Positions 5,346-23,389 of a DNA stretch of 23,389 nt are shown here, piece by piece; positions within the stretch are counted from its first letter, which is position 1; every line of letters starts with the position of its first letter. Source of the DNA: a virus. The DNA lies in IMG/VR virus record IMGVR_UViG_3300032323_002156, positions 1 to 23,389 of that record; one strand, given 5' to 3'. The position numbers and the translations under genes were made by a program. The notes beneath the pieces were generated by a model. That model worked only from the letters and a program-made list of their open reading frames with translations. It was not told the origin of the DNA and made no database searches.

Positions 5346-6110
5346 ATGAAGCAAATTGTATTAGTAACTGGTGGATTTGATCCACTGCACAGCGGACACA
5401 TTGCCTATTTCTCTGAAGCCAAAAAGCTAGGCGATATTTTGATAGTAGGTGTAAACTCTGACGACTGGTTGACCCGTAAAAAAGGTGCGCCATTTATGCC
5501 GCTGTCGGAACGTGTCAACATTGTTCGCAATCTCAAAATGGTAGACTACGTAATAGACTTTCCTGATGACGATGGCAGTGCCAAGAAAGCTATTCAAATG
5601 GTGCGTCAGAGTTATCCAACAGATCAAATTATCTTTGCCAACGGTGGTGATAGAACCAACGATAACATTCCAGAAATGGATGTTGCTGATGCCAAGACCA
5701 AGTTTGTGTTCGGTGTTGGCGGATTTAACAAAGCCAACTCAAGTTCCTGGATTTTACAAGAATGGAAAGCACCCAAAACCGAAAGATCCTGGGGATATTA
5801 TCGTGTGTTACACGAAGTTTCAGGAATGAAAGTAAAAGAACTCACTGTGAATCCCGGAGCAAGTTTAAGTATGCAACGTCACTGGAAACGTGCAGAATAT
5901 TGGATTATATCAGAGGGCCAGTGTGTACTTAAAAGTCAGTTAGATGGAGGGTATCAATTGCCTTCAAAAACTCTTTCCGTTCACCAAGGACACATAATTC
6001 ATGTTGCCGAATGGCATCAATTAACTAACCCATTTGATGTTCCATGTAAGTTGGTAGAAGTGCAGTTTGGTAATCAATGTATTGAGGAAGACATCGAGAG
6101 ACGACCATGA
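5346..6110 (+). CDS. Nucleotidyltransferase-cupin fusion (TagD/RfaE-like + ManC-type cupin), 254 aa
   Basis: This appears to be a two-domain sugar-nucleotide or alcohol-phosphate enzyme. The N-terminal half (about 1-125) is a cytidylyltransferase-type nucleotidyltransferase, with GGFDPLHSGH carrying the HxGH catalytic motif (HSGH, 15-18) and a later SERV segment typical of the fold. The C-terminal half (about 140-245) is a cupin like the C-terminal isomerase domain of mannose-6-phosphate isomerase/GDP-mannose pyrophosphorylase: RSWGYYRVL, then VNPGASLSMQRH and RAEYW. The likely chemistry is activation of a phosphorylated sugar or polyol plus an isomerase or epimerase step, but the substrate is not readable. 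The final ISSTR-like motif of cytidylyltransferases is altered (KANSSSW). It begins a four-gene plus-strand block and overlaps the next gene by ATGA. Confidence 0.85.
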   Translation: MKQIVLVTGGFDPLHSGHIAYFSEAKKLGDILIVGVNSDDWLTRKKGAPFMPLSERVNIVRNLKMVDYVIDFPDDDGSAKKAIQMVRQSYPTDQIIFANGGDRTNDNIPEMDVADAKTKFVFGVGGFNKANSSSWILQEWKAPKTERSWGYYRVLHEVSGMKVKELTVNPGASLSMQRHWKRAEYWIISEGQCVLKSQLDGGYQLPSKTLSVHQGHIIHVAEWHQLTNPFDVPCKLVEVQFGNQCIEEDIERRP

Positions 6111-7917: not shown

Positions 7918-8839
7918 AAGTTATTTGAGCAGTTTGCCAGTTAAAATCAATGGACAAGAAAAAATTGATGCATTGACATTTTTTGCCGAAGGCGCTGCTT
8001 GTTGCGGTGATCAGGCATCAACTACAAGAAGTCAGACATATGAGCCATGTGATGTGGGTGCTATTATTGGTAATGCATTTGATGCCAATCCTAGCAAAGT
8101 AACACTGCCACACTACAAAGTACGCAAGATGGTTATGGACACACAAGCACAACTAGGCAAATACTGGCTTAGTATCGATAGCAACGTGTTTATCTACAAA
8201 GATAAACTCAATCCTCACAAATACTTACGCTACAGTTTTAATGGTGTTTTTCCTGCCACTGGAATATATTGCAACGATAATCCAGGAGACGAAAACTGGA
8301 ACAATATTAAACGTGATTATAGCATGGATTTAAAACCGTGGCGCACACAAGGTAATCATATTCTTATCACACTACAAAGACCACTGGGGTGGTCAATGCG
8401 TGGAGTTGATTTAATGTCGTGGTTAAAACGAACTCTTAAACAAGTTAGAGAAAACACAGATAGACCCATTGTGTTGCGTTGGCATCCGGGAGACTGGAAA
8501 GCCTACCCAAATTACAAATCTACATTGGATAAATTTGGCGTCACAGTAAGTTCTCAAGATAGACATATACTACATGACTTAAAAAACTGCTGGGCATTGG
8601 TGTGTCATAACTCAACCCCAAGTGCTGTGGCACCCATAGAAGGGATTCCTGCATTTATCACAGATGATCCTAACTACAGTCAAGGCGGAGAGATTGCCAA
8701 CACTGATTTTGGTTTGTTAGAAAATCCCAACTTACCTGACAGAGAATTATGGATTCGTAAACTGGCACAATGCCATTGGAGTTTTGAAGATCTACGATCT
8801 GGGCGTTGCTGGAGTCACATGCGCAACTACGTCAAGTAA
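7889..8839 (+). CDS. Capsule-synthesis-like transferase, 316 aa
   Basis: It shares with the 277-aa protein (14614-15447) the series LKPW, ITLQRP, DRPIVLRWHP (His-Pro at 199-200), WALVCHNS (HNS 240-242), EGIPAF (251-256), LENP and a C-terminal WSFEDLRSG. His-Pro to HNS is 41 residues in both. The pattern suggests a GT-B-like transferase of the capsule-synthesis type, although no clear nucleotide-sugar identity can be read. The ATG at 7889 overlaps the previous gene by 29 bases, with only a weak GGA ribosome-binding site. An in-frame TTG at 7907 is an alternative start. It is the last gene of the plus-strand block and overlaps the end of the opposing reductase gene by 8 bp, with no terminator visible at the convergence. 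Confidence 0.78.
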   Translation: MNNAQPLIVKSYLSSLPVKINGQEKIDALTFFAEGAACCGDQASTTRSQTYEPCDVGAIIGNAFDANPSKVTLPHYKVRKMVMDTQAQLGKYWLSIDSNVFIYKDKLNPHKYLRYSFNGVFPATGIYCNDNPGDENWNNIKRDYSMDLKPWRTQGNHILITLQRPLGWSMRGVDLMSWLKRTLKQVRENTDRPIVLRWHPGDWKAYPNYKSTLDKFGVTVSSQDRHILHDLKNCWALVCHNSTPSAVAPIEGIPAFITDDPNYSQGGEIANTDFGLLENPNLPDRELWIRKLAQCHWSFEDLRSGRCWSHMRNYVK

Positions 8840-9629
8840 AGTCTTTTAACTGTTGTAGTTGAGTATCGTAGTCAGGAATAGCAAAGTCAAGTTCTCTGCG
8901 TGTATCAACCAGTATTTTATTTACAGTTTTAGGTCCTTGGGTACGCACAATCTTTTTGTCTAGCTCATACACTTGATTGATCTTGCACAGTAAATCATAC
9001 TTGTTGATTTGAACATCATTATTGACCAAATGATATACTCCAGAGATTACAGGATCTTTGATATATTGATCAATACATCTGGCCAACTGCAATGTAGTAA
9101 TACCATTCCACCAGGCATTGTCCCATCCAGGTAATTCTGATTCTTTATTGGTCAGCACCCAGTTAAGCAATCCAGTACCATTTTTTAGTTCGGGTCCAAT
9201 AATACTCATTCTGAAAGTGATGTCTTTGGTATTATTGATCTCTCCAAAACTTTTACTGCGACCATATGCGTTGATTTCAGTGTGCCTGTCGGCTTCGATA
9301 TAATTACCACGTTTTCCGTCAAACACACAATCAGTTGATAAGTGAATCAGTCTTGTGTCGGTATTTTTTAACTTGTGGGAGCAATACTGTGGCCACCAGG
9401 AATTGATAACAATAGCACGGTCGGGACGATCAATACAGTCCTTTACCAACAGTCCAACAGCGTTGACCACAAAGTCAGCATCTAAAGTTTCAAAGAACTG
9501 ATCAGCATTGTCATGCTCTATGTCAAATACAGATCTATCTACCGCGGTAACTGTGTGCCCTTGTTGTTTGAGATATTTTACAATTACATGTCCGGCCATA
9601 CCACGACTACCAACAACAGTTACTCGCAT
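8832..9629 (-). CDS. RmlD/WbvR-like NDP-4-keto-sugar reductase, 265 aa
   Basis: This is an extended short-chain dehydrogenase of the dTDP-4-dehydrorhamnose reductase type. It has an NAD(P)-binding GSRGMAG (7-13), STDCVFDG (98-105) and catalytic YGRSK (122-126), followed by SFGE. In the pathway inferred here it would reduce the 4-keto group made by the 4,6-dehydratase encoded next to it. At 265 aa it is close to RmlD and the WbvR-type reductases of the UDP-L-QuiNAc/L-RhaNAc route, and lacks the extra C-terminal domain of the about 370-aa WbjC/FnlB reductases of the L-FucNAc route. It starts inside the end of the dehydratase gene (10-base overlap), third in the order epimerase-dehydratase-reductase. 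Which C4 stereochemistry results cannot be told. Confidence 0.85.
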   Translation of the reverse strand: MRVTVVGSRGMAGHVIVKYLKQQGHTVTAVDRSVFDIEHDNADQFFETLDADFVVNAVGLLVKDCIDRPDRAIVINSWWPQYCSHKLKNTDTRLIHLSTDCVFDGKRGNYIEADRHTEINAYGRSKSFGEINNTKDITFRMSIIGPELKNGTGLLNWVLTNKESELPGWDNAWWNGITTLQLARCIDQYIKDPVISGVYHLVNNDVQINKYDLLCKINQVYELDKKIVRTQGPKTVNKILVDTRRELDFAIPDYDTQLQQLKDFT

Positions 9630-10606
9630 ATAAACCCACCTTTGATTAACATTTGTTTGATTTGTTCTTTGTTCATAATAAAAGTGCGAGATGAAAATTC
9701 TTCTTGATCAAATTTTGGTAAATGTGAATACTTTGCCTCAAGTTCCGGAGTACATTTCACAGGCAATGTTACAAAATAGTTTTTGTCGTAGTAATAACTA
9801 AGTCCTGCGTCATGCTTGCTGATCAACATTTCGTCTAACTTTTCTCCAGGCTTGCTACCAATTTCTTTGATATCAACCCGACCATACTGTTCCATCAATA
9901 CCTCAGCTATATCTCGTATGTAACATGCCGGCATGTTCATTACAAAGGTTTCTCCACCAATTGAATTTTCTGCAGCTTTAAACAACAAAGTAATAGCTTC
10001 TTCCAAGGTCAGAAAGAATCTTGTCATGTTGAGATCAGTGATAGTAATTGGACCGCCAGCTTTGATCTGTTCAACAAAGTAAGGTATAACTGACCCATTT
10101 GAACCCATGACATTGCCGCCGCGGATACAAACAAATCGAGTATGCTGACTAAGGTCGTTGCCTTGTATTACCAACTTCTCGCCTACCGCTTTGGTCATGC
10201 CGTATAAGTTAAGTGGCTCAACTGCTTTGTCTGTACTTACATCTATTACTTTGTCTACGTTATTCTCAATTGCAGCATTGACAATGTTAGTAGTACCAGT
10301 GATATTTGTTTTGATTGCTTCTTGCGGATGATCCTCGCATATAGGCACATGCTTGAGAGCTGCTAAATGAAACACCACGTCCACATCACGCATGGCAAAT
10401 TTTACTGACTCGTAATCGCGAACATCCCCGATAACAAATTTCAATCTTGAGTCATGAAACTTGCGTTGCATCAACACCTGTTGTAGTTCTCCGCGACTAA
10501 AACATATAATCTCTGCAGGATTGTAGTTGGCTAACAACATGCGTATTAGAGTTTGTCCCCAACTTCCTGTGGCGCCTGATACAAATATTCTTTTTCCGTT
10601 AAACAT
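9620..10606 (-). CDS. UDP-GlcNAc 4,6-dehydratase/epimerase (CapD/FnlA/PseB family), 328 aa
   Basis: This is an extended SDR of the CapD/FlaA1 group, which converts UDP-GlcNAc to a 4-keto-6-deoxy sugar, with 5-epimerisation in FnlA and PseB. Motifs are GATGSWG (11-17) for NAD(P), LAALKHVP (81-88), VSTDKA (123-128), YGMTK (135-139), GNVMGSNGSVIP and the MTRFFLTLEEA segment typical of the family. YxxxK is intact, as in PseB/FlaA1; as I recall, FnlA/WbjB proteins have Met in place of this Tyr. The start at 10606 overlaps the epimerase gene by 8 bases. The FnlC-type epimerase upstream and RmlD-type reductase downstream favour an L-FucNAc/L-QuiNAc route over the pseudaminic acid route, which would need an aminotransferase; none is seen here. 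Confidence 0.92.
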   Translation of the reverse strand: MFNGKRIFVSGATGSWGQTLIRMLLANYNPAEIICFSRGELQQVLMQRKFHDSRLKFVIGDVRDYESVKFAMRDVDVVFHLAALKHVPICEDHPQEAIKTNITGTTNIVNAAIENNVDKVIDVSTDKAVEPLNLYGMTKAVGEKLVIQGNDLSQHTRFVCIRGGNVMGSNGSVIPYFVEQIKAGGPITITDLNMTRFFLTLEEAITLLFKAAENSIGGETFVMNMPACYIRDIAEVLMEQYGRVDIKEIGSKPGEKLDEMLISKHDAGLSYYYDKNYFVTLPVKCTPELEAKYSHLPKFDQEEFSSRTFIMNKEQIKQMLIKGGFICE

Positions 10607-11675
10607 GATTTCCTAATAAAATATTTACTACCGTATCACTGACATTGGTTCTGGCATATTCCACTGGTACATGCCATGATCGATCAATCTGTTTCATAGC
10701 TCGATATCCAGCAACAATATTGTCGACTTCTAATCCAGTCACAATGTTTGATCCACACCAAACAGTTTCTGGGCGTTCGGTAGTTGCACGTATAGTTATA
10801 GTAGGCTTGTAAAACAAGCACATCTCTTCTTGCACAGTGCCTGAATCACTGATAGCCATATAACTATTTTTTTCCAAACACACAAAGTCAAAGAAACCCA
10901 TGGGGTCTGTTAATTGTATACGGTTACTTATTTTTATATCTAACTCACGCAATCGTTGTCGTGTTCGTGGATGACAACTAAACACTATAGGATATTCTTG
11001 AGCAACAGTTTCCATGGCACTAAAAATATTAGCCAAGCGTTCAGGGTTGTCTACATTCTCTGCTCGATGTGCTGTGGCTATGATATACTTGCCAGATTTC
11101 AATTTTAATTGTTTTAAAATATCACTGTGATCAATTGGTTTGCAATAGTAATCTAGTACTTCTTTGATGGGATTACCAGTGACAAACACACGATTGTTTT
11201 GTGCGCCTTCGCGCAAAAGATTTTGTCTACTAAGTTCAGTATAAGGCAAGTTAATGGTGCTGATACTGTCTATTAATCTGCGATTTTTTTCTTCTGGCAC
11301 TGACATGTCATAACAACGGTTGCCGGCTTCCATGTGAAAAACAGGTATGCCCATGCGTTCGCAAACAATGGCACTCAACCCAGAATTAGTATCACCTAGT
11401 ACCAACACAGCGTCTGGTTGAAAGTCTACAATGTACTGTTCTACTCCGACCATGATAGCGGCCAGTTGCTGGCCAATTGTACCACGACTTTCTAACACAC
11501 AATCTGGTTGACGCAACCCCAACTGCTCAAAAAAGATATTATTGAGAGTGGCGTCATAGTTTTGTCCAGTATGCAGTACTCTGTGGTCGCTGACTTGATC
11601 TAACTTGGGTATAATCCTCGACAGTCGAATAATTTCAGGTCTAGTTCCCAGTATGGTCAATATCTTACGCTTCAT
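10599..11675 (-). CDS. fnlC: UDP-sugar 2-epimerase, WecB family, FnlC/WbjD type, 358 aa
   Basis: It belongs to the non-hydrolysing UDP-GlcNAc 2-epimerase (WecB) family: ILGTRPEIIRLS at the N-terminus, LGDTNSG, HMEAGNRCYD followed by VPEEKNRR, and SDSGTVQEE near the C-terminus. The forms HTGQNYD (35-41), HMEAGNRCYD and INLPYTELSRQNLL match the FnlC/WbjD subgroup rather than WecB, which as I recall has HVEAGLR. FnlC-type enzymes invert C2 of a UDP-2-acetamido-2,6-dideoxy-L-hexose as the last step to UDP-L-FucNAc or UDP-L-QuiNAc. Its stop overlaps the dehydratase start, and its own start overlaps the end of the methyltransferase gene by 11 bases. The subgroup call is from remembered motifs and should be verified by a tree. 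Confidence 0.9.
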   Translation of the reverse strand: MKRKILTILGTRPEIIRLSRIIPKLDQVSDHRVLHTGQNYDATLNNIFFEQLGLRQPDCVLESRGTIGQQLAAIMVGVEQYIVDFQPDAVLVLGDTNSGLSAIVCERMGIPVFHMEAGNRCYDMSVPEEKNRRLIDSISTINLPYTELSRQNLLREGAQNNRVFVTGNPIKEVLDYYCKPIDHSDILKQLKLKSGKYIIATAHRAENVDNPERLANIFSAMETVAQEYPIVFSCHPRTRQRLRELDIKISNRIQLTDPMGFFDFVCLEKNSYMAISDSGTVQEEMCLFYKPTITIRATTERPETVWCGSNIVTGLEVDNIVAGYRAMKQIDRSWHVPVEYARTNVSDTVVNILLGNHV

Positions 11676-16188: not shown

Positions 16189-16640
16189 TATACTGTGATA
16201 TCCTCCATGCCTGCTGTGCGTAAGCGTACAATGTGACCCATTTGCCATTGCTTGGCATCCAGTCCTTTGAGTATACCCAACCATTTATTGCGCAACAGTG
16301 CTACTTCGTTGATGATAGTTTCAAAGTCAATCACTTCGTCTTCACCATCCACATACTTTTCTGCATCACGACTGGTCAATGCTCTAGCATAGGCTTCTAA
16401 GTATTTTTGAAAGTGGCGTCTACGAATTTTACGTAATTGAATATTGAGAAAGTTAAGTACTGCTTCAATTTCTTGTAACTGATTGAAACGGTGCTCAGTG
16501 ATACCAGGCAGTGCAGAGATATTTTTCTCTACCAAGCCCCCGATCCTACAATCACGCTTGGCTTCTTCCAGTTCTCGTTCATAATGCTGAATAAAATCTG
16601 GGATTGACCCTAGATCAGCAACAACTTTACTATACCACAT
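16188..16640 (-). CDS. uvsY: Probable UvsY recombination mediator, 150 aa
   Basis: This is a small, charged, mostly helical protein. A helix EIEAVLNFLNIQLRKIRRRHF (about 57-77) is followed by a YARALTSRDAE region and a C-terminal helix LLRNKWLGILKGLDAKQ (115-131), ending WQMGHIVRLR. The layout, with two long helices, a basic middle and a final helix, and the size close to T4 UvsY (137 aa) match UvsY, which loads UvsX onto gp32-covered single-stranded DNA. It lies just downstream of uvsX in the same run, three genes on. Sequence identity with T4 UvsY is not obvious to the eye, so the assignment rests on size, helical layout and position. The ATG at 16640 has AAGGAATA upstream. An alternative is a generic phage DNA-binding protein. 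Confidence 0.62.
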   Translation of the reverse strand: MWYSKVVADLGSIPDFIQHYERELEEAKRDCRIGGLVEKNISALPGITEHRFNQLQEIEAVLNFLNIQLRKIRRRHFQKYLEAYARALTSRDAEKYVDGEDEVIDFETIINEVALLRNKWLGILKGLDAKQWQMGHIVRLRTAGMEDITV

Positions 16641-17874
16641 ATTTTTTATATTCCTTTAGCCACGGAAACACCGTTTCCCAATTAGTATGTCGACGTCTGT
16701 CTTTCTCATTGAGATAAATTATTAGTTTTTTTATCTCTTGAGGATCAAATTTAGAATTTGTAATTTCTGTAATAATACCATTCATGTATGACTTGATCAT
16801 TTTGTTTTCATCGGTTTGTTCGGGCATAAGATTCATTATTTCAACAAATGTGTCTTGAAACTCTGATGCACCAAATATTCCTGCTTTCATATATGATGGT
16901 TCAGGAGTAACTCCGCTAAACCAGTGTCCTACCGGGCGGTGTTGTCTCCATTGTTGAAGTTTGATCAATAGAGCTGGCATGGTTTTAATAGTCAACGCAG
17001 AAATTGTTTGATTGATATGTACAGTTAACCATTTTTGTTCTAGTAGATAATTAAAATTTTGTTCCCATTGTGCTAAATCGAGCCCCCACCGAACATATTC
17101 CTGTTCAGCTCCCCAGCAATCAATGCTGCATGTGATATCTACTCTCTTTAATTTTTTAGATCCCAATAGAGTTTTAAATCGGTTGACATACATTTCTAAT
17201 TTTGATTGACTGACCATCAAGTTAGTTACTACATTAAGGGTGCATTCTGGATTGCCTTGTTCGTCGATTTTGTCTAACAATTTGTCAAATTCTTTTTGAT
17301 AGAATGGTTCTCCTCCTAGTATGTGCAAACGTTTAAGAGTCGAAAAACCTTGATCAAACCACTTCCAAAAATACGGAACCAAATCTTTAAAATTTCCATC
17401 AACTGACACCAGCTTTATTCCATGTTGATCAAAAACACCGTGACGTTGATTTTCATCGTTGATTGAAGAGCTCAATGCTGGTCTACAATACAAGCATCCT
17501 AAATTGCAAGTGTTATTAAAATAAACTTCGACAACAGTAGGAGATACATTAATTACTGTCGAATTATCTTCTAACTCCGGGGGAACTAGATTCGGCATGG
17601 TTAGTTGCACCATGCGATCACTAGTTCCTTGTGCCTCTTCAATGTCTCGGCAATAACTACAATTTTTATCAGGCCATTGACCTTGAAGCATTTGACGTCG
17701 ATCGTCTAACACCATTGGATTGTTATGAAAATTATTAAAATTTTCAGAAGTCAATGGATACTCCGATGTTCGATGACAGCTCATTGATCTCCCAGAGTTT
17801 AGATAAAGAGTTGTCCATGCCCATTTCAACTGACAGGCAGTGTTTGTCTTGATCGGAAAATACTTGTCAGACAT
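16630..17874 (-). CDS. Radical SAM protein with extra N-terminal Cys (N-twitch-like), 414 aa
   Basis: The radical SAM 4Fe-4S motif CxxxCxxC is CNLGCLYC (123-130), and the GGEP motif is at 187-190 in LHILGGEPF. Ahead of it, Cys33 and a CSYC pair (72 and 75) with a short DIEE helix resemble a twitch-type auxiliary cluster placed at the N-terminus, a pattern of the N-terminal-twitch radical SAM group. Later ITCSIDCWG and HINQTISALT are barrel strands. Such proteins do radical chemistry on peptides or small molecules; the substrate is unknown. The ATG at 17874 overlaps the stop of the acidic protein (TAATG), and its stop overlaps the uvsY start by 11 bases. It is one of three related proteins in this window. 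Confidence 0.9.
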   Translation of the reverse strand: MSDKYFPIKTNTACQLKWAWTTLYLNSGRSMSCHRTSEYPLTSENFNNFHNNPMVLDDRRQMLQGQWPDKNCSYCRDIEEAQGTSDRMVQLTMPNLVPPELEDNSTVINVSPTVVEVYFNNTCNLGCLYCRPALSSSINDENQRHGVFDQHGIKLVSVDGNFKDLVPYFWKWFDQGFSTLKRLHILGGEPFYQKEFDKLLDKIDEQGNPECTLNVVTNLMVSQSKLEMYVNRFKTLLGSKKLKRVDITCSIDCWGAEQEYVRWGLDLAQWEQNFNYLLEQKWLTVHINQTISALTIKTMPALLIKLQQWRQHRPVGHWFSGVTPEPSYMKAGIFGASEFQDTFVEIMNLMPEQTDENKMIKSYMNGIITEITNSKFDPQEIKKLIIYLNEKDRRRHTNWETVFPWLKEYKKYVV

Positions 17875-18128
17875 TAATAGTCATCGTCGTCGTAATCGTC
17901 ATCGTACTCATCTTCGTCATCGTCTTCATCTTCGGCATGATCATCAAGATACTGTTTGAGTGCTTGTTTGATTTCGCTATCGCTTTTGAATGCTGATTTG
18001 ATTTCTTCTGCTGATACATCATTGTCAATTAACACACCAACCAGTGCTTCGGCTGCTTCTGCACGATCCATTCCATTAACATAGCGTTTGAGTTCTTGCC
18101 AAACTTCATTTGCTAACTCTGCTGCCAT
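17874..18128 (-). CDS. Small acidic-tail protein downstream of uvsX, 84 aa
   Basis: I chose the ATG at 18128 (MAAELANEVW), which has AAGGAG upstream and directly follows the uvsX stop. A TTG/ATG start further out (18164) would run into uvsX. The first 55 residues are helical (LKRYVNGMDRAEAAEAL, then AEEIKSAFKSD and SEIKQALKQYL). From about residue 62 the tail is almost only Asp, Glu and Tyr (DDHAEDEDDDEDEYDDD and on), about 22 acidic-rich residues. Acidic tails in phage replication proteins (as in gp32) mimic DNA or recruit partners. The location in the uvsX-uvsY run suggests a modulator of recombination, but no family is recognised. Confidence 0.8.
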   Translation of the reverse strand: MAAELANEVWQELKRYVNGMDRAEAAEALVGVLIDNDVSAEEIKSAFKSDSEIKQALKQYLDDHAEDEDDDEDEYDDDYDDDDY

Positions 18129-18129
18129 A

Positions 18130-19194
18130 TTACGCTTCTCCTTCCACAGTTTCTTCAGAAACACTTACTTCAGATTTTTGATTTGCAAAGTCTGCCATCA
18201 GCTTGTCTAGGCATCCATCTTCGTTGCTTTCCCATGCTTTACGGAACATTTTTAAAATTTCTCCATCGCTGGTTACAAACGACAAACGGTTACCGTCTTT
18301 CTTGAGAATACCTTTTTTCTCAGCAAGATCAACAAGACCTGAATGTGGACTCATACCAGTGGTATATGGAATTTTGACTTGTACACCCTCAAACGGTTTG
18401 GCATAACGTGTTTTCATGATCTTACATGCAGCACGAATACCGTTGACTTCACTAACTTTGTTGCCATCTTCATCTTCTTTGAGTTTCAATTTCTTCATAG
18501 CAACAACAATTGAACTTGCGTAGATAAAACCTTGACCGCCTGAAATTTTATCATCTGGATCAAACATGTCTTGTGACGCATAAGTGTGATTGGTCACTAC
18601 CATGCCTACGTTGTAACTACCAAACATGTTTACACAATTACGAACCAATGCTGTAAGTGCTTTGGGCTTACGACCCAAGTCACCTTTCATCTCGCCTGCT
18701 TCAAACTGATTAACATCTGTTGGAGTCAGCAACATACCCAATGAGTCAATAACAAACAACACTTTTGGACGCTCGCCATCTGGTAGTGCTTTGTAATCAC
18801 TCATGAATGTACTAATTGTTTTAGCAACGTCATCAATCATGGCCATTGAAAGCTTCAACAACTTGCTTTCGCTGGTATCGACGCCTAGTGCTTGTAGCCA
18901 TGCTTCATCAAGAGCATTTTCACTGTCAATCAACACAACAAAGATACCTTGCTCTTGTGCGTGTTTGACAATGTTACCGGAACAGATATATGATTTACCT
19001 GCGCCCGAGTCTCCGGCAAATACAGTAACTTTGCCCAGTGGAATACCTTTGTGAAAGTCTCCCGAGATCAAATAGTTCAGAGCATAGTTGCCTGTGCTAA
19101 TCCAATCTGTTGGATCATTGAATCCAATACTTAATCCGTCGATACTTTTTGTAATTTCCTTGCGGAACTTTGATACGTCAAATGGTTTTGCCAT
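18130..19194 (-). CDS. uvsX: UvsX-like RecA-family recombinase, 354 aa
   Basis: This is the phage strand-exchange protein. Walker A is GDSGAGKS (61-68), Walker B is VLFVIDSLGM (145-154), and the GGQGFIYASS region (about 219-228) corresponds to a DNA-binding loop of the RecA core. A DSENALDE stretch (90-97) holds the catalytic Glu position typical of RecA/UvsX. The length is close to T4 UvsX (about 390 aa, with a longer C-terminal tail). UvsX forms filaments on single-stranded DNA with gp32 and UvsY, and feeds recombination-dependent replication. The start at 19194 has AAGGA upstream and overlaps the preceding radical SAM gene by 17 bases. The stop is two bases before the ATG of the acidic-tail protein, so the two are translated together. 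Confidence 0.95.
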   Translation of the reverse strand: MAKPFDVSKFRKEITKSIDGLSIGFNDPTDWISTGNYALNYLISGDFHKGIPLGKVTVFAGDSGAGKSYICSGNIVKHAQEQGIFVVLIDSENALDEAWLQALGVDTSESKLLKLSMAMIDDVAKTISTFMSDYKALPDGERPKVLFVIDSLGMLLTPTDVNQFEAGEMKGDLGRKPKALTALVRNCVNMFGSYNVGMVVTNHTYASQDMFDPDDKISGGQGFIYASSIVVAMKKLKLKEDEDGNKVSEVNGIRAACKIMKTRYAKPFEGVQVKIPYTTGMSPHSGLVDLAEKKGILKKDGNRLSFVTSDGEILKMFRKAWESNEDGCLDKLMADFANQKSEVSVSEETVEGEA

Positions 19195-20347
19195 GATTGT
19201 TTCCTTCTCTTAATTTGTACAAATCTTTAAAAATTTTACTGCTATCTAAATTTCTTCGTTGATCTAGTTCTGCTAATTTAGCAAACGAATCATTGAGATT
19301 TTTATCAAATGGTTGTTGAATATAGTGTAACATGTTTCGATAACTATCTTCAAGCAAATACCCAGGTGCTTCGTTGATTCTAATTTGTAGTTTGTTCTTG
19401 ATTAATTGTAACACACTTTCCGGTAGGTGTCTAATATTTAGGTGCAATGGATTCAACAGTGCACCAATAACAAAACTATTGTTATGAAATCCTAGTTGTT
19501 TAAAATAGTCCACACATCCAAAAATGCTATCATAATTTAGCAAAAAATACAACATATTAAAAGTTATTTTATGATCTAATTTGCTGATGATTTTTAAGTT
19601 ATCCACAAAGTCTGCCCATTTTCCGCCATATCGAATGTAATCAAACTCTTGCTCGATTGTTTCAACACTTATTGTCCAATGAACATTTTTAAACCGGCAT
19701 ATTTCTTCAAAGATTCGAGTGTCAACTTTGCTAAGATTGGTGTTAATTCGAAGTTGGACATCTGGATTCAACTTTTGCAATAGTTCTAAATTTTCTTTCA
19801 TCAACAAAGGTTCGCCGCCGGCAAGATACACATGTTTAAGAGTGGGCGCATGTTGATATATGTATTGTTTGAACTGTTCACGTTGATCGTCGGTCGGAAT
19901 ACTTGGTTGTATTTTTAACTCGTCTGCCCATTTGCTACTAAAAACCGGGCCGCAATACACACACGAAAAATTACACAAGTTACTCCACCGCACATCTATA
20001 GTTTGTAAGTCAAAGTTTTTGGGTTGATAAGTTGAAACTGGCACATGTTTGAGTTCACGAATATAAAATATTCGATCACTGATGATATCAAATCCTTTTT
20101 TACCTCTTTCCAACTCGTAACAAGTTTGACAACTAGGCACAGGGTTTTGTGCTATTATACTGGATTGTCTGTTGATGTTTTCAGTGCCCAATACAATTTG
20201 ATCGATAGAACTATCTTGTATATTTCCAATGGGCATGGTTTCAACACTGCGAATACAGTTTTTGACTTTGCCATCAAAGTTATACATAAGTCCGGTCCAT
20301 GGCATGGGACAGAAGTAAGGATTGGTCAACATGTCCTTGGGTGTCAT
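19178..20347 (-). CDS. Radical SAM protein with extra N-terminal Cys (N-twitch-like), 389 aa
   Basis: The radical SAM motif is CNFSCVYC (125-132), followed by AGGEPLL around residue 175. The N-terminal region begins with FCPMPWTGLMYNFDGKVKNC, placing Cys13 and Cys31, and has CQTC at 73-76, a typical N-terminal twitch arrangement of four cysteines for an auxiliary Fe-S cluster. The C-terminal third has no further clusters. The ATG at 20347 overlaps the stop of the dehydrogenase gene (ATGA). Together with the proteins at 16630-17874 and 20877-21818, it forms a set of three divergent relatives in one transcription run. The substrate is unknown; its neighbours (SDR, sulfotransferase-like) suggest a common small-molecule or sugar pathway, by inference only. 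Confidence 0.91.
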   Translation of the reverse strand: MTPKDMLTNPYFCPMPWTGLMYNFDGKVKNCIRSVETMPIGNIQDSSIDQIVLGTENINRQSSIIAQNPVPSCQTCYELERGKKGFDIISDRIFYIRELKHVPVSTYQPKNFDLQTIDVRWSNLCNFSCVYCGPVFSSKWADELKIQPSIPTDDQREQFKQYIYQHAPTLKHVYLAGGEPLLMKENLELLQKLNPDVQLRINTNLSKVDTRIFEEICRFKNVHWTISVETIEQEFDYIRYGGKWADFVDNLKIISKLDHKITFNMLYFLLNYDSIFGCVDYFKQLGFHNNSFVIGALLNPLHLNIRHLPESVLQLIKNKLQIRINEAPGYLLEDSYRNMLHYIQQPFDKNLNDSFAKLAELDQRRNLDSSKIFKDLYKLREGNNHGKTI

Positions 20348-20880
20348 CGTGGTCCCAAGGAAATGTCTGGTATTGATAAATTTGGTTCAGCCAATTCAAA
20401 AATGTTGACCAATGTGCTGGCCCAATGATCAACATCGGCAGCTGGCGGAACTGTTTTGTCTGGACTGGTTGCAATGTTTCCAGGACGTACTATGGTAGTA
20501 CGCACACCCAATCGTTGATGTCGAATTTGTTGAACTGCTTGTTCCAGTGCTATTTTTTGTACTCGATAGTGATCCATGTCTAGTCCTTTGATACTGGACA
20601 CTGGATCTTGAGTCATCATGGTGCTGATTACAATAATGTGTTTTTTTGTTCCTGTCCATCGTTTGACCATTTCAAACAATAGTTCTGTCTGTGCATATCC
20701 AGCTTGAGCATTGTTGATAAAAACGTCACAAGGTTCTATTAGATCTGCTATTTTGGGTATGACACGAATGTTGTGCCCATGGCGTCGACTTAGTCCAACA
20801 ATTTCATGTCCGCGATCGGTGTATTGTTTGGCCAATGCTTGACCGATTCCTGCGGTATGTCCGGTAATTGCTATTTTCAT
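20344..20880 (-). CDS. Short-chain dehydrogenase/reductase (SDR), 178 aa
   Basis: This is an NAD(P)-dependent oxidoreductase with a classical SDR fold. The cofactor loop is GHTAGIG (7-13), LSRRHG suggests NADP preference (Arg after strand 2), FINNAQAG (54-61) is the NNAG-like motif, Ser86 lies in VISTMM, and the catalytic YRVQK (105-109) is complete. At 178 aa it is shorter than the usual about 250, missing part of the C-terminal substrate lid. It has ATGA overlaps with both radical SAM genes flanking it, so the three are tightly coupled. It may oxidise or reduce a carbon that a radical SAM partner handles, but no substrate is evident. Confidence 0.87.
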   Translation of the reverse strand: MKIAITGHTAGIGQALAKQYTDRGHEIVGLSRRHGHNIRVIPKIADLIEPCDVFINNAQAGYAQTELLFEMVKRWTGTKKHIIVISTMMTQDPVSSIKGLDMDHYRVQKIALEQAVQQIRHQRLGVRTTIVRPGNIATSPDKTVPPAADVDHWASTLVNIFELAEPNLSIPDISLGPR

Positions 20881-21818
20881 GATCTTAGGTTATTCTGTTC
20901 CAATAGGTACTGATCTAATTCAACTTGATTATTTTTATCCACTGCCACAAATCCTGGCATGACATCTTGATATGGCAAAGTCAAGGAGTTTGCGTACTTA
21001 ACATTCAACACGCTGGGCGCATTTAAAAGTGCATAGGAGTGTAGTAGATTGTGATCTTTGACAAACTTTAATATATTTTCAAAATCACCAATGTTCAACG
21101 CACTCACAGTGGTCCACGTGTTTAATTCAGTTAGGCCCATGGATTGATATTTTTTTAAATTTTGATAATATTTTTTCCATTTGATTGGCCAACGTACTCG
21201 ATCATGTACCGGGCCAATGCCATCCAAACTAGCTGTTACAGTTACATCAATGCCTTTTGATACTAGATCTTCTAGTTCGGGTATAATCAACGAACAGTTG
21301 GTGTTGACTCTAACGCTTCTAACATTTTTTGGCAAGTTGTTGAGAATCTGTCGATAATTTTTACTGGCGCTGGGCTCTCCACCGTTGATATCTAAATGCA
21401 CAATACGATCCTGTGGTAATGCCCAAAAACCAAAAGAATTGTCTACTATTGGGTAGTTTTTAAATTTTAAACTACCAATTTTTGTACTTAGTTGTTCGTT
21501 GCAAGTTAGACAAGCACTGTTACATATATTGTCTAATACTCCTCCCACCATCAGATAATCAGCTTGACGTTGTGTTTGATCAAAGTTAACAGAATTTAAT
21601 CTAATACTGCCTTGTCCCATTTCTTCTGTTTGTTGGCATCGAACACACTCACTGGGCCAAATATTATTTTTAAATTTTTCTTTGGTCGCTACCAACCAGT
21701 TGCTGTTTTCCATATGTTGTAATGTGGGAAATCGAGGTGCGTTGATCATATGACCACAACGACTTACAGAGTTGTCGGGATTAAATCTTACAAAATGATC
21801 AAGTCTTGGGCAATGCAT
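20877..21818 (-). CDS. Radical SAM protein with extra N-terminal Cys (N-twitch-like), 313 aa
   Basis: The radical SAM motif is CNSACLTC (99-106), and LDINGGEPSA follows around residue 145-154. Ahead are Cys3, Cys21 and a CVRC pair (58 and 61), again an N-terminal twitch-like arrangement. ATG 21818 is preferred to the TTG one codon upstream. It overlaps the end of the sulfotransferase-like gene by 20 bases and the start of the SDR by 4 bases. It is the shortest of the three radical SAM proteins, ending soon after the barrel with a Gln/Asn-rich tail. The fixed order sulfotransferase-like, radical SAM, SDR, radical SAM in overlapping genes suggests one biochemical pathway. Chemistry and substrate cannot be read. 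Confidence 0.9.
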   Translation of the reverse strand: MHCPRLDHFVRFNPDNSVSRCGHMINAPRFPTLQHMENSNWLVATKEKFKNNIWPSECVRCQQTEEMGQGSIRLNSVNFDQTQRQADYLMVGGVLDNICNSACLTCNEQLSTKIGSLKFKNYPIVDNSFGFWALPQDRIVHLDINGGEPSASKNYRQILNNLPKNVRSVRVNTNCSLIIPELEDLVSKGIDVTVTASLDGIGPVHDRVRWPIKWKKYYQNLKKYQSMGLTELNTWTTVSALNIGDFENILKFVKDHNLLHSYALLNAPSVLNVKYANSLTLPYQDVMPGFVAVDKNNQVELDQYLLEQNNLRS

Positions 21819-22470
21819 CAAAAATTTGTTGTGCTTTTTTAAAAATTAAATCATACACATCTGTGTGTTTTTTTTGTATGTCAGAAATCAATTCATCAAA
21901 TGTAAATTCTTGTCCTACTCTATCTAACAACAGTTGATCTAGATAAAAGTACAAATCAAGTTTTTTCCAATTAAAGTGTTTGATGTTTTCTAAAAATTCA
22001 GCAGTTGGTGGAGCAACATCAGCTCGAAAATTTAAGTTGGACAATGAGTCAATATCACTCATTGAGCTAAATTTTAATTTTGTAGTTGGATGTAGATACT
22101 TATTGAGATTCAACAACCAAAAAAATTGAGGACAATAATGTCTATTCAAAAACAAATAATTATCAACAAACCATAAAATAGTTTTATGATCCAACCCAGG
22201 ATAGTCTCTATCTATGTGCTGTAAGTATGTATTAACACCACTGATAAATCTCTCTTTGGGTGCTCTAATAAACACAGTGATCGGTTGATGTATCTGTGTA
22301 ATCTGTTTGTTGGTAATAATTTGCCAATCAGGTCTTTGCCCACTTTGAATTTGTGCAAAAAACGAACTACTGCCATTTTTCATAATGGGAAAAATATAAT
22401 GCTGTGAGGAACTTAAATAAATTACCTCACAGCTATCTGGAAAGATAGTATTATCTATCTCGCTAAACAT
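21799..22470 (-). CDS. Sulfotransferase-like protein, 223 aa
   Basis: I chose the ATG at 22470 over the adjacent TTG. YIFPIMKNGSSSFF (KNGSSSF, 31-37) resembles the 5'-phosphosulfate loop of PAPS-dependent sulfotransferases (PKxGSTSL-like), and VFIRAPKERFISGVN (66-80) resembles the 3'-phosphate-binding motif (RDPxxRxxSxY). HYCPQFF (111-117) matches the HxxPQ motif of carbohydrate sulfotransferases that act on glycans. The remaining C-terminal 100 residues are helical. No membrane anchor is present, unlike Golgi enzymes. Its neighbours encode gp32 (3 bases upstream) and a radical SAM protein (20-base overlap). A PAPS-dependent sugar or small-molecule sulfation is the best guess; motif matching is by eye. 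Confidence 0.7.
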   Translation of the reverse strand: MFSEIDNTIFPDSCEVIYLSSSQHYIFPIMKNGSSSFFAQIQSGQRPDWQIITNKQITQIHQPITVFIRAPKERFISGVNTYLQHIDRDYPGLDHKTILWFVDNYLFLNRHYCPQFFWLLNLNKYLHPTTKLKFSSMSDIDSLSNLNFRADVAPPTAEFLENIKHFNWKKLDLYFYLDQLLLDRVGQEFTFDELISDIQKKHTDVYDLIFKKAQQIFDALPKT

Positions 22471-22473
22471 CAA

Positions 22474-23389
22474 TTACTTCTGTTGACGTGCTCTAATCAT
22501 TGCCAAGATATCTTCGGCTTTGTTAGCGCCTGCCGCAGGAGCTGTTGCTTGAACTGGTGCGCTGGCTGCTACAGGTTCGTCATCGTCGAACGCACTTGCT
22601 ACAGGAGCTGGTGCGACCTTGGTTGCCGGTGCATCTTCATCATGACTTGACACAGATGCTGAGCCGCCTGCTGGTGCGTTAACACCTGCTGGACGATAGT
22701 ACTGTCCCCAACGCTCTGTGTCATATGGTTGACCGTCTACACTTGCTTCAAACATTTCCTTCATTACCTTTAACTCAACATCAGTTGGCTTTTTAGGCAA
22801 GAACGTTGAAAGATCGTATAAACCATATTGATCAATGGCTGCTTGTTCTGCTTCTGTCAATGCCGACTCTTTGCGAGCCCACTTTGATGTTGAATAATCA
22901 GCAAAGCCACCCTTTGATGTCTTGGTAATACGGAAGTCTAAGCCACGTAGTAAATCTGTTGGTAGTTCTTCCAGCTCTGGATCCATCAATGCTGACTTGA
23001 TAGTGGCAAAAATTTGTGGACCAATGATGAATCTACGAATTGGATTTTCTGGTGTCTTGTCTTCGTTCATTGGGTTTTCACGTACAAAGCCTTGGAAAAT
23101 GTAACTGCGTTTTTTCCAGTACTTACGACCCATTTCTTCCAGTGATTTGTCTTTGAACCAAGTGCGTACTTCTGCTAGAATTGGACAAGCCTCTTGCCAC
23201 ATTTCCACGCACGGTACTTGAACCATGACTTGTTTGGAATCCATCTCGCCTTTGATGCCGTTGAACGGTAAACGAATCATTGCTCGTTCTGCCCAGAAAA
23301 ATGTGTTCTTTGGATTTGCGTCTGGTAGGAAGCGTAGTGTTGCTGATGAACCTTCTTCCATATTCCAGTGTGGGTAAATTGAATTATCA
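22474..23389 (-). CDS. 32: gp32-like single-stranded DNA-binding protein (5' end outside window)
   Basis: The frame is open through the window edge: nine codons (DNSIYPHWN) precede the ATG at 23361, so that ATG is internal. The DNSIYPHWNMEEGSSATLRFLPD opening is that of T4-type gp32 core domains as seen in marine T4-like phages, with the LAST (KRKST) N-terminus presumably beyond the edge. YIFQGFVREN and the FATIKSALMDPELEELP region follow (about 95-145 of the visible part). The C-terminal 90 residues are Ala/Pro/Asp-rich and low complexity, ending AEDILAMIRARQQK. Two Cys occur (CVEMWQEAC), with no CxxC, so the zinc site of T4 gp32 (His and three Cys) is not evident. It protects ssDNA for UvsX and UvsY. 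Confidence 0.93.
   Translation of the reverse strand, partial: DNSIYPHWNMEEGSSATLRFLPDANPKNTFFWAERAMIRLPFNGIKGEMDSKQVMVQVPCVEMWQEACPILAEVRTWFKDKSLEEMGRKYWKKRSYIFQGFVRENPMNEDKTPENPIRRFIIGPQIFATIKSALMDPELEELPTDLLRGLDFRITKTSKGGFADYSTSKWARKESALTEAEQAAIDQYGLYDLSTFLPKKPTDVELKVMKEMFEASVDGQPYDTERWGQYYRPAGVNAPAGGSASVSSHDEDAPATKVAPAPVASAFDDDEPVAASAPVQATAPAAGANKAEDILAMIRARQQK

Follow-up and report, generated by a model that had tools for sequence, protein, structure and literature searches.

Sulfotransferases and radical S-adenosylmethionine (SAM) enzymes have both been described in phages, each in its own setting. The cyanophage P-SSM7 carries an annotated sulfotransferase, the single small Sulfotransfer_2-type protein PSSM7_018, whose gene adjoins gp5 without a radical SAM cassette, and OM43 phages carry annotated sulfotransferases whose role was called unclear (PMC10580990). 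The T4-like marine viral genome TARA_ERS488813_N000010 holds 12 radical SAM genes, which were tied to the supply of iron-sulfur (Fe-S) clusters (PMC5332604); the main text of that paper does not contain the word sulfotransferase. In the C3 deoxygenation of apramycin, the radical SAM enzyme AprD4 works with an NADPH-dependent reductase partner, AprD3 (PMC5461906). Here we analyze a cassette in the viral record IMGVR_UViG_3300032323_002156 of IMG/VR (positions 1 to 23,389; the whole stretch of 23,389 nucleotides is called the window), in which a sulfotransferase-like gene (ST) overlaps a radical SAM gene (rS1) and is followed by a short-chain dehydrogenase/epimerase-like gene (SDR) and a second radical SAM gene (rS2).

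Phage sulfotransferases are known, and so, separately, are phages rich in radical SAM genes; the unusual part is the coupling of the two. An earlier sequence-only reading had called a phage sulfation step joined to radical and redox chemistry unusual; this stands for the linkage with radical SAM and SDR genes but not for a phage sulfotransferase alone, already known from P-SSM7 and the OM43 phages. A joined sulfotransferase and radical SAM phage module was not found among the openly licensed PMC papers searched. Judging from sequences and structural models, the conserved pairing of ST with a radical enzyme in uncultured jumbo-phage relatives appears to point to an undescribed phage-run chemistry.

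The cassette and its conservation

The cassette consists of four overlapping minus-strand genes arranged head to tail and bounded by two DNA-recombination genes, encoding a gp32-like single-stranded DNA-binding protein (SSB) and UvsX (Table 1). ST starts 3 bp past the stop of the gp32-like gene (22474). The coordinates confirm the layout given by the sequence-only reading, a 223-residue gene after gp32 followed by overlapping radical SAM, SDR, and radical SAM genes, but its range of 20344-22470 for the four genes contains only ST, rS1, and SDR, with rS2 falling outside. Simple promoter and terminator scans stayed near the shuffle level.

With ST and rS1 as queries, more than 130 loci were retrieved from IMG/VR; the 87 non-redundant complete rS1 loci come from IMG/VR plus one contig of a metagenome-assembled genome (MAG). 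ST lies directly upstream of rS1 in 87/87 of these, always with an overlap of 14, 19, or 20 bp, and many of the paired loci were retrieved by the rS1 query alone. Among the 75 loci with enough sequence downstream of the pair, SDR is present in 68 and rS2 in 72, where the rS2 label stands for a twitch radical SAM gene and can also catch those of rS3 type; a 2-oxoglutarate (2OG)-oxygenase-like protein of 158-206 residues, with a weak Asp_Arg_Hydrox match and a retained HxD...H pattern, occurs in 27. The co-occurrence in other genomes on which the sequence-only reading had staked the cassette is borne out by these counts. Five loci (L022, L103, L107, L122, and L131) have ST and rS1 alone before uvsX, with SDR and rS2 both missing, while L086 has rS2 without SDR and L097 has SDR without rS2; SDR and rS2 are a second, sometimes missing unit. 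On the marine contigs L144 and L224-L228 the site differs from the gp32-uvsX site, yet ST and rS1 are still joined, with SDR, 2OG, SGNH, and rS2 genes nearby in other orders.

The median ratios of nonsynonymous to synonymous substitution (dN/dS) are 0.13 for ST, 0.10 for rS1, 0.09 for SDR, and 0.08 for rS2, with one ST pair reaching 1.1; by this estimate, purifying selection acts on all four genes. The grounds for setting the cassette beyond chance are the rS1-ST adjacency in every locus, the median dN/dS of 0.08-0.13, and the fact that the motif residues are the invariant ones.

Further genes were seen at some loci. L086 (5350-10810) holds two tandem ST-family genes and, between rS2 and uvsX, a 435-residue protein that looks ANL-ligase-like by eye without a Pfam match. 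In the same interval, L003 (9149-10081), L132 (5326-6387), and others encode a protein of 310-353 residues with SGNH-hydrolase-like motifs, again by eye and without a Pfam match. The third twitch gene of the window, rS3, is present in some loci and absent from others.

Fold and conserved residues of ST

The AlphaFold2 model of ST, built from 72 relatives, has a mean predicted local distance difference test (pLDDT) score of 91.4 and a predicted template modelling (pTM) score of 0.87. In the VIA re-alignment of this model the first 19 rows are all sulfotransferases, with Z from 6.1 to 3.0, and the next, unrelated row has 2.8. Foldseek against viral models also gave annotated sulfotransferases as its top three matches (best E 1.5e-14), so that the sulfotransferase fold predicted for the 223-residue protein by the sequence-only reading is upheld in the model. 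The top VIA rows are heparan-sulfate sulfotransferases: HS2ST, 3-OST, and NDST align with Z 5-6 over ~155 residues, and the position of the catalytic lysine appears to coincide. However, these enzymes are eukaryotic and only 8-13% identical to ST, and their acceptor may not be that of ST.

The window protein has no Pfam, PHROG, or NCBIfam match beyond one chance-level Pfam hit and does not match Sulfotransfer_2 (PF03567); phmmer and profile searches against PDB sequences gave chance matches only. Weak PF03567 matches (E <= 1) were obtained for 20/72 relatives, the best with E 0.0015 and 19.1 bits, so that the family stays below the curated cut-off of 22 bits. The motifs singled out by the sequence-only reading, KNGSSSF (residues 31-37), RAPKERFISG (69-78), and HxCPQ (111-115, as HYCPQ), are all in place. 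Five residues are invariant across the 72 relatives, K31, R69, R74, H111, and Q115. When the VIA aligned ranges are read without a gap over residues 20 to 31, K31 is placed at K83 of HS2ST and K614 of NDST1, lysines that contact 3'-phosphoadenosine-5'-phosphosulfate (PAPS) (PMC6081452, PMC3733922). The P-SSM7 sulfotransferase, which passes the PF03567 cut-off, resembles ST in its fold type, its Arg/Ser 3'-phosphate-binding (3'-PB) loop, and its HxxPQ pattern (HFRPQ), but the Foldseek TM score between the two is low (0.32) and ST lies below the Pfam cut-off. The fold, the 5'-phosphosulfate-binding (5'-PSB) Lys, and the 3'-PB Arg...Ser pair by which the PAPS sulfotransferase superfamily is recognized are found in ST (K31 and R69 at 100%, S77 at 96%). 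As modelled and as conserved, ST carries what a PAPS enzyme needs.

The obligate ST-rS1 coupling could also mean that ST is inactive as a sulfotransferase and acts as an accessory subunit of rS1 that binds PAPS, its desulfated form PAP, or a nucleotide, and the weak Pfam scores and short length of ST (223 residues, and 177 in L144, the shortest noted) would agree with this. We consider such a role very unlikely, as conservation within the ST family is strongest at the PAPS-binding and catalytic residues (Lys, Arg, Arg, Ser, and His).

Table 1. Positions of the cassette genes, their motifs, and the flanking genes in the window.
Feature	Position	Strand	Remarks
gp32-like SSB	22474..23361	-	upstream boundary; phrog_1192, E 1.5e-64
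ST	21799..22470	-	223 aa, sulfotransferase-like; ATG at 22470, stop at 21799
5'-PSB-type loop of ST, PIMKNGSSS	22363..22389	-	residues 28-36; K31 invariant
3'-PB-type loop of ST, RAPKERFISG	22237..22266	-	residues 69-78; R69 and R74 invariant, S77 96%, G78 99%
HYCPQ motif of ST	22126..22140	-	residues 111-115; H111 and Q115 invariant; candidate catalytic His
rS1	20877..21818	-	313 aa, twitch-type radical SAM enzyme; overlaps ST by 20 bp
CX3CX2C radical SAM motif of rS1, CNSACLTC	21501..21524	-	all three Cys 100%
SDR	20344..20880	-	178 aa, short-chain dehydrogenase/epimerase-like; overlaps rS1 by 4 bp
rS2	19178..20347	-	389 aa, radical SAM enzyme of the N-terminal twitch type; shares 4 bp with SDR and 17 bp with uvsX
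UvsX	18130..19194	-	downstream boundary; phrog_97, E 6e-69
rS3	16630..17874	-	third twitch radical SAM gene, downstream of uvsX; NF033640, E 5.8e-68

Candidate chemistry and its acceptor

The three other proteins of the cassette retain the residues typical of their families. rS1 matches Radical_SAM (PF04055, E 1.3e-6) and the N-terminal twitch radical SAM family NF033640 (N_Twi_rSAM; E 3.8e-36); rS2 (245.1 bits) and rS3 (229.8 bits) pass the curated NF033640 cut-off of 170 bits, whereas rS1, always linked to ST, stays under it at 125 bits. The CX3CX2C cysteines C99/C103/C106 of rS1 and its N-terminal C3/C21/C58/C61 are conserved at 100% in 87 sequences, as are C125/C129/C132 and C13/C31/C73/C76 of rS2 in 83 sequences; rS2 also matches PF04055 (E 1.9e-16) and, at its N terminus, SPASM (PF13186). 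The AlphaFold2 model of rS1 (pLDDT 90.4) aligns to radical SAM enzymes. SDR matches the NAD-dependent epimerase family PF01370 (E 2.5e-9) and the short-chain dehydrogenase family PF00106 (E 3e-6), and its T6, G7, G11, G13, Y105, and K109, at 100% in 81 sequences, make up the TGxxxGxG and YxxxK patterns of classical short-chain dehydrogenases.

Computation gives the gene layout, the folds, the conservation of catalytic and cofactor-binding residues and of the pairing, and the purifying selection; from these we infer an activity, an order of steps, an acceptor, and a purpose. We give an even chance to the reading that the cassette is a phage-encoded tailoring operon whose ST-rS1 core uses host PAPS on a shared acceptor, most likely a carbohydrate or a small polar molecule. 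The core would be a translationally coupled pair of a PAPS-dependent ST and rS1, the latter with an N-terminal auxiliary Fe-S (twitch) domain; because the genes overlap and are obligately paired, the two enzymes are suggested to act on one acceptor. rS1 would activate a C-H position of the acceptor, and ST would add sulfate to the same acceptor from PAPS made by the host. SDR and rS2, with the optional 2OG-oxygenase-like protein, may perform a further radical or redox edit, in the manner of the AprD4/AprD3 radical dehydratase-reductase pair, a likeness by enzyme type only. The acceptor would most likely be a carbohydrate or another small polar metabolite, and the product may serve to modify the virion or the host surface, or as a counter-defence compound.

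A carbohydrate is favoured because the closest solved sulfotransferases are heparan-sulfate enzymes and because the window contains sugar genes (glycosyltransferases and a Polysacc_synt_2, RmlD, and UDP-GlcNAc 2-epimerase set), and also because the radical SAM arrays of relatives adjoin a carbamoyltransferase, as on a 340-kb contig. Several points weigh against the tailoring operon as proposed. Foldseek of the ST model against the PDB gave no match at E <= 0.001, and the VIA score of Z 6 is modest. Glycan genes are common in such phages, so the glycan island of the window, which the sequence-only reading suggested may supply the acceptor, is weak evidence for it. A search of 16 large contigs for adenosine-5'-phosphosulfate (APS) kinase found none, whereas 11/14 control genomes gave a match; PAPS would hence come from the host, and a phage-encoded supply was rejected, though without proof, since the contigs may be fragments. 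By sequence, rS1 is closest among solved proteins to the peptide maturase SkfB.

In the window itself, RmlD-type, Polysacc_synt_2, and UDP-GlcNAc 2-epimerase genes stand in a row at 8832-11675, which, by family, we take to be a possible UDP-L-FucNAc-type route. The gene at 5346-6110 joins a cytidylyltransferase-like domain to a mannose-6-phosphate-isomerase-type cupin.

Among PDB sequences the rS1 profile matched SkfB, a sactipeptide maturase, and no other (E 5.9e-5), and SkfB also comes first in Foldseek, as would be expected if the twitch radical SAM enzymes were peptide maturases and ST sulfated Tyr or another side chain of a phage protein. The weak match of the optional 2OG-like protein to Asp_Arg_Hydrox fits a peptide or protein substrate, as does a small protein encoded beside uvsX (window 18164-17877) with an acidic Tyr tail (DDDDY) kept in most homologues. 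However, neither a precursor-peptide gene nor any other small open reading frame was found within the overlapping cassette; the acidic Tyr tail does not track ST, being present in Sinorhizobium phage Phosso, where the ST profile finds nothing; and the closest solved sulfotransferases are glycan enzymes rather than tyrosylprotein sulfotransferases, although absence from that list is not exclusion. We regard peptide or protein modification as rather unlikely. The tailed protein as a sulfotyrosine substrate was rejected on account of the Phosso homologue and stays only as a weak part of the peptide case. Most homologues of the 17877-18164 protein retain the terminal acidic-Tyr pattern, though they diverge in the N-terminal part; the pattern may be an SSB-like acidic tail.

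Among the fold neighbours of rS1 are enzymes acting on peptides (SkfB), on nucleotides (viperin, MoaA), and on sugars (BlsE), so that the acceptor may be of any of these types. Its alignment to viperins, MoaA, and BlsE, weak pVip matches, and the replication and recombination genes that surround the cassette in most loci would suit an operon that makes a modified nucleotide or nucleoside, such as a chain terminator, a DNA hypermodification precursor, or a counter-defence compound. This is distinctly improbable in our view: ST and rS1 stay together on L144 and L224-L228 without a replication context, the viperin matches are at superfamily level, and, to our knowledge, nucleotide sulfation has little precedent. 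A viperin-like antiviral enzyme was likewise rejected, the NCBIfam and PADLOC viperin matches being weak and at superfamily level.

Distribution and biological meaning

The window UvsX is 58-68% identical to UvsX of the cultured large phages RaK2, Munch, and Phosso, in which the SSB gene and uvsX are adjacent with no cassette between them. The ST and rS1 profiles had no match in RaK2, Munch, Phosso, or Ettore; such a negative is weak unless a positive control backs it, and the ST profile was positive in 11/11 cassette records. A tblastn search with ST, rS1, and SDR gave no matches in 50,697 phage records. Cultured carriers were also sought with rS2 and marine rS1 queries and rejected, since these reached only distant radical SAM genes of Vibrio phages. 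In the genome collection the rS1 profile found one true relative, L144, on a possibly viral contig of a Porticoccaceae MAG; besides it there were only radical SAM matches of 22-37% identity, and a bacterial origin was rejected. In Ettore (L233, 5882-10716) uvsX looks split, with an N-terminal piece of 81 residues and an annotated homing endonuclease nearby.

NF033640 matches occur at 13, 14, and 15 places in uncultured contigs of 340, 182, and 145 kb, respectively, versus 0-1 weak places in four cultured phages; TARA_ERS488813_N000010 is likewise a large phage genome with many radical SAM genes. Large uncultured phages may possess a pathway devoted to radical SAM chemistry and sulfation, with at least a dozen twitch radical SAM enzymes per genome, whose product would be a sulfated glycan or metabolite specific to phages and chemically of a class new to viruses; we consider this possible rather than probable. 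L239 (G001:C1:132000-151900), L240, and L241 show runs of 4-5 or more consecutive twitch radical SAM genes beside a carbamoyltransferase; by eye, proteins resembling glycosyltransferases and possibly further sulfotransferases lie there as well.

We know of no described phage system that joins sulfation with radical C-H activation in a multi-step small-molecule or glycan chemistry of its own. ST and rS1 form a defined two-gene unit whose product could be sought by expression, and the cassette offers an entry to the question of why radical SAM genes are so abundant in environmental phages. Should our reading be right, small-molecule or glycan chemistry in several steps, combining sulfation with radical C-H activation, would be encoded by the phages of freshwater and marine bacteria themselves.

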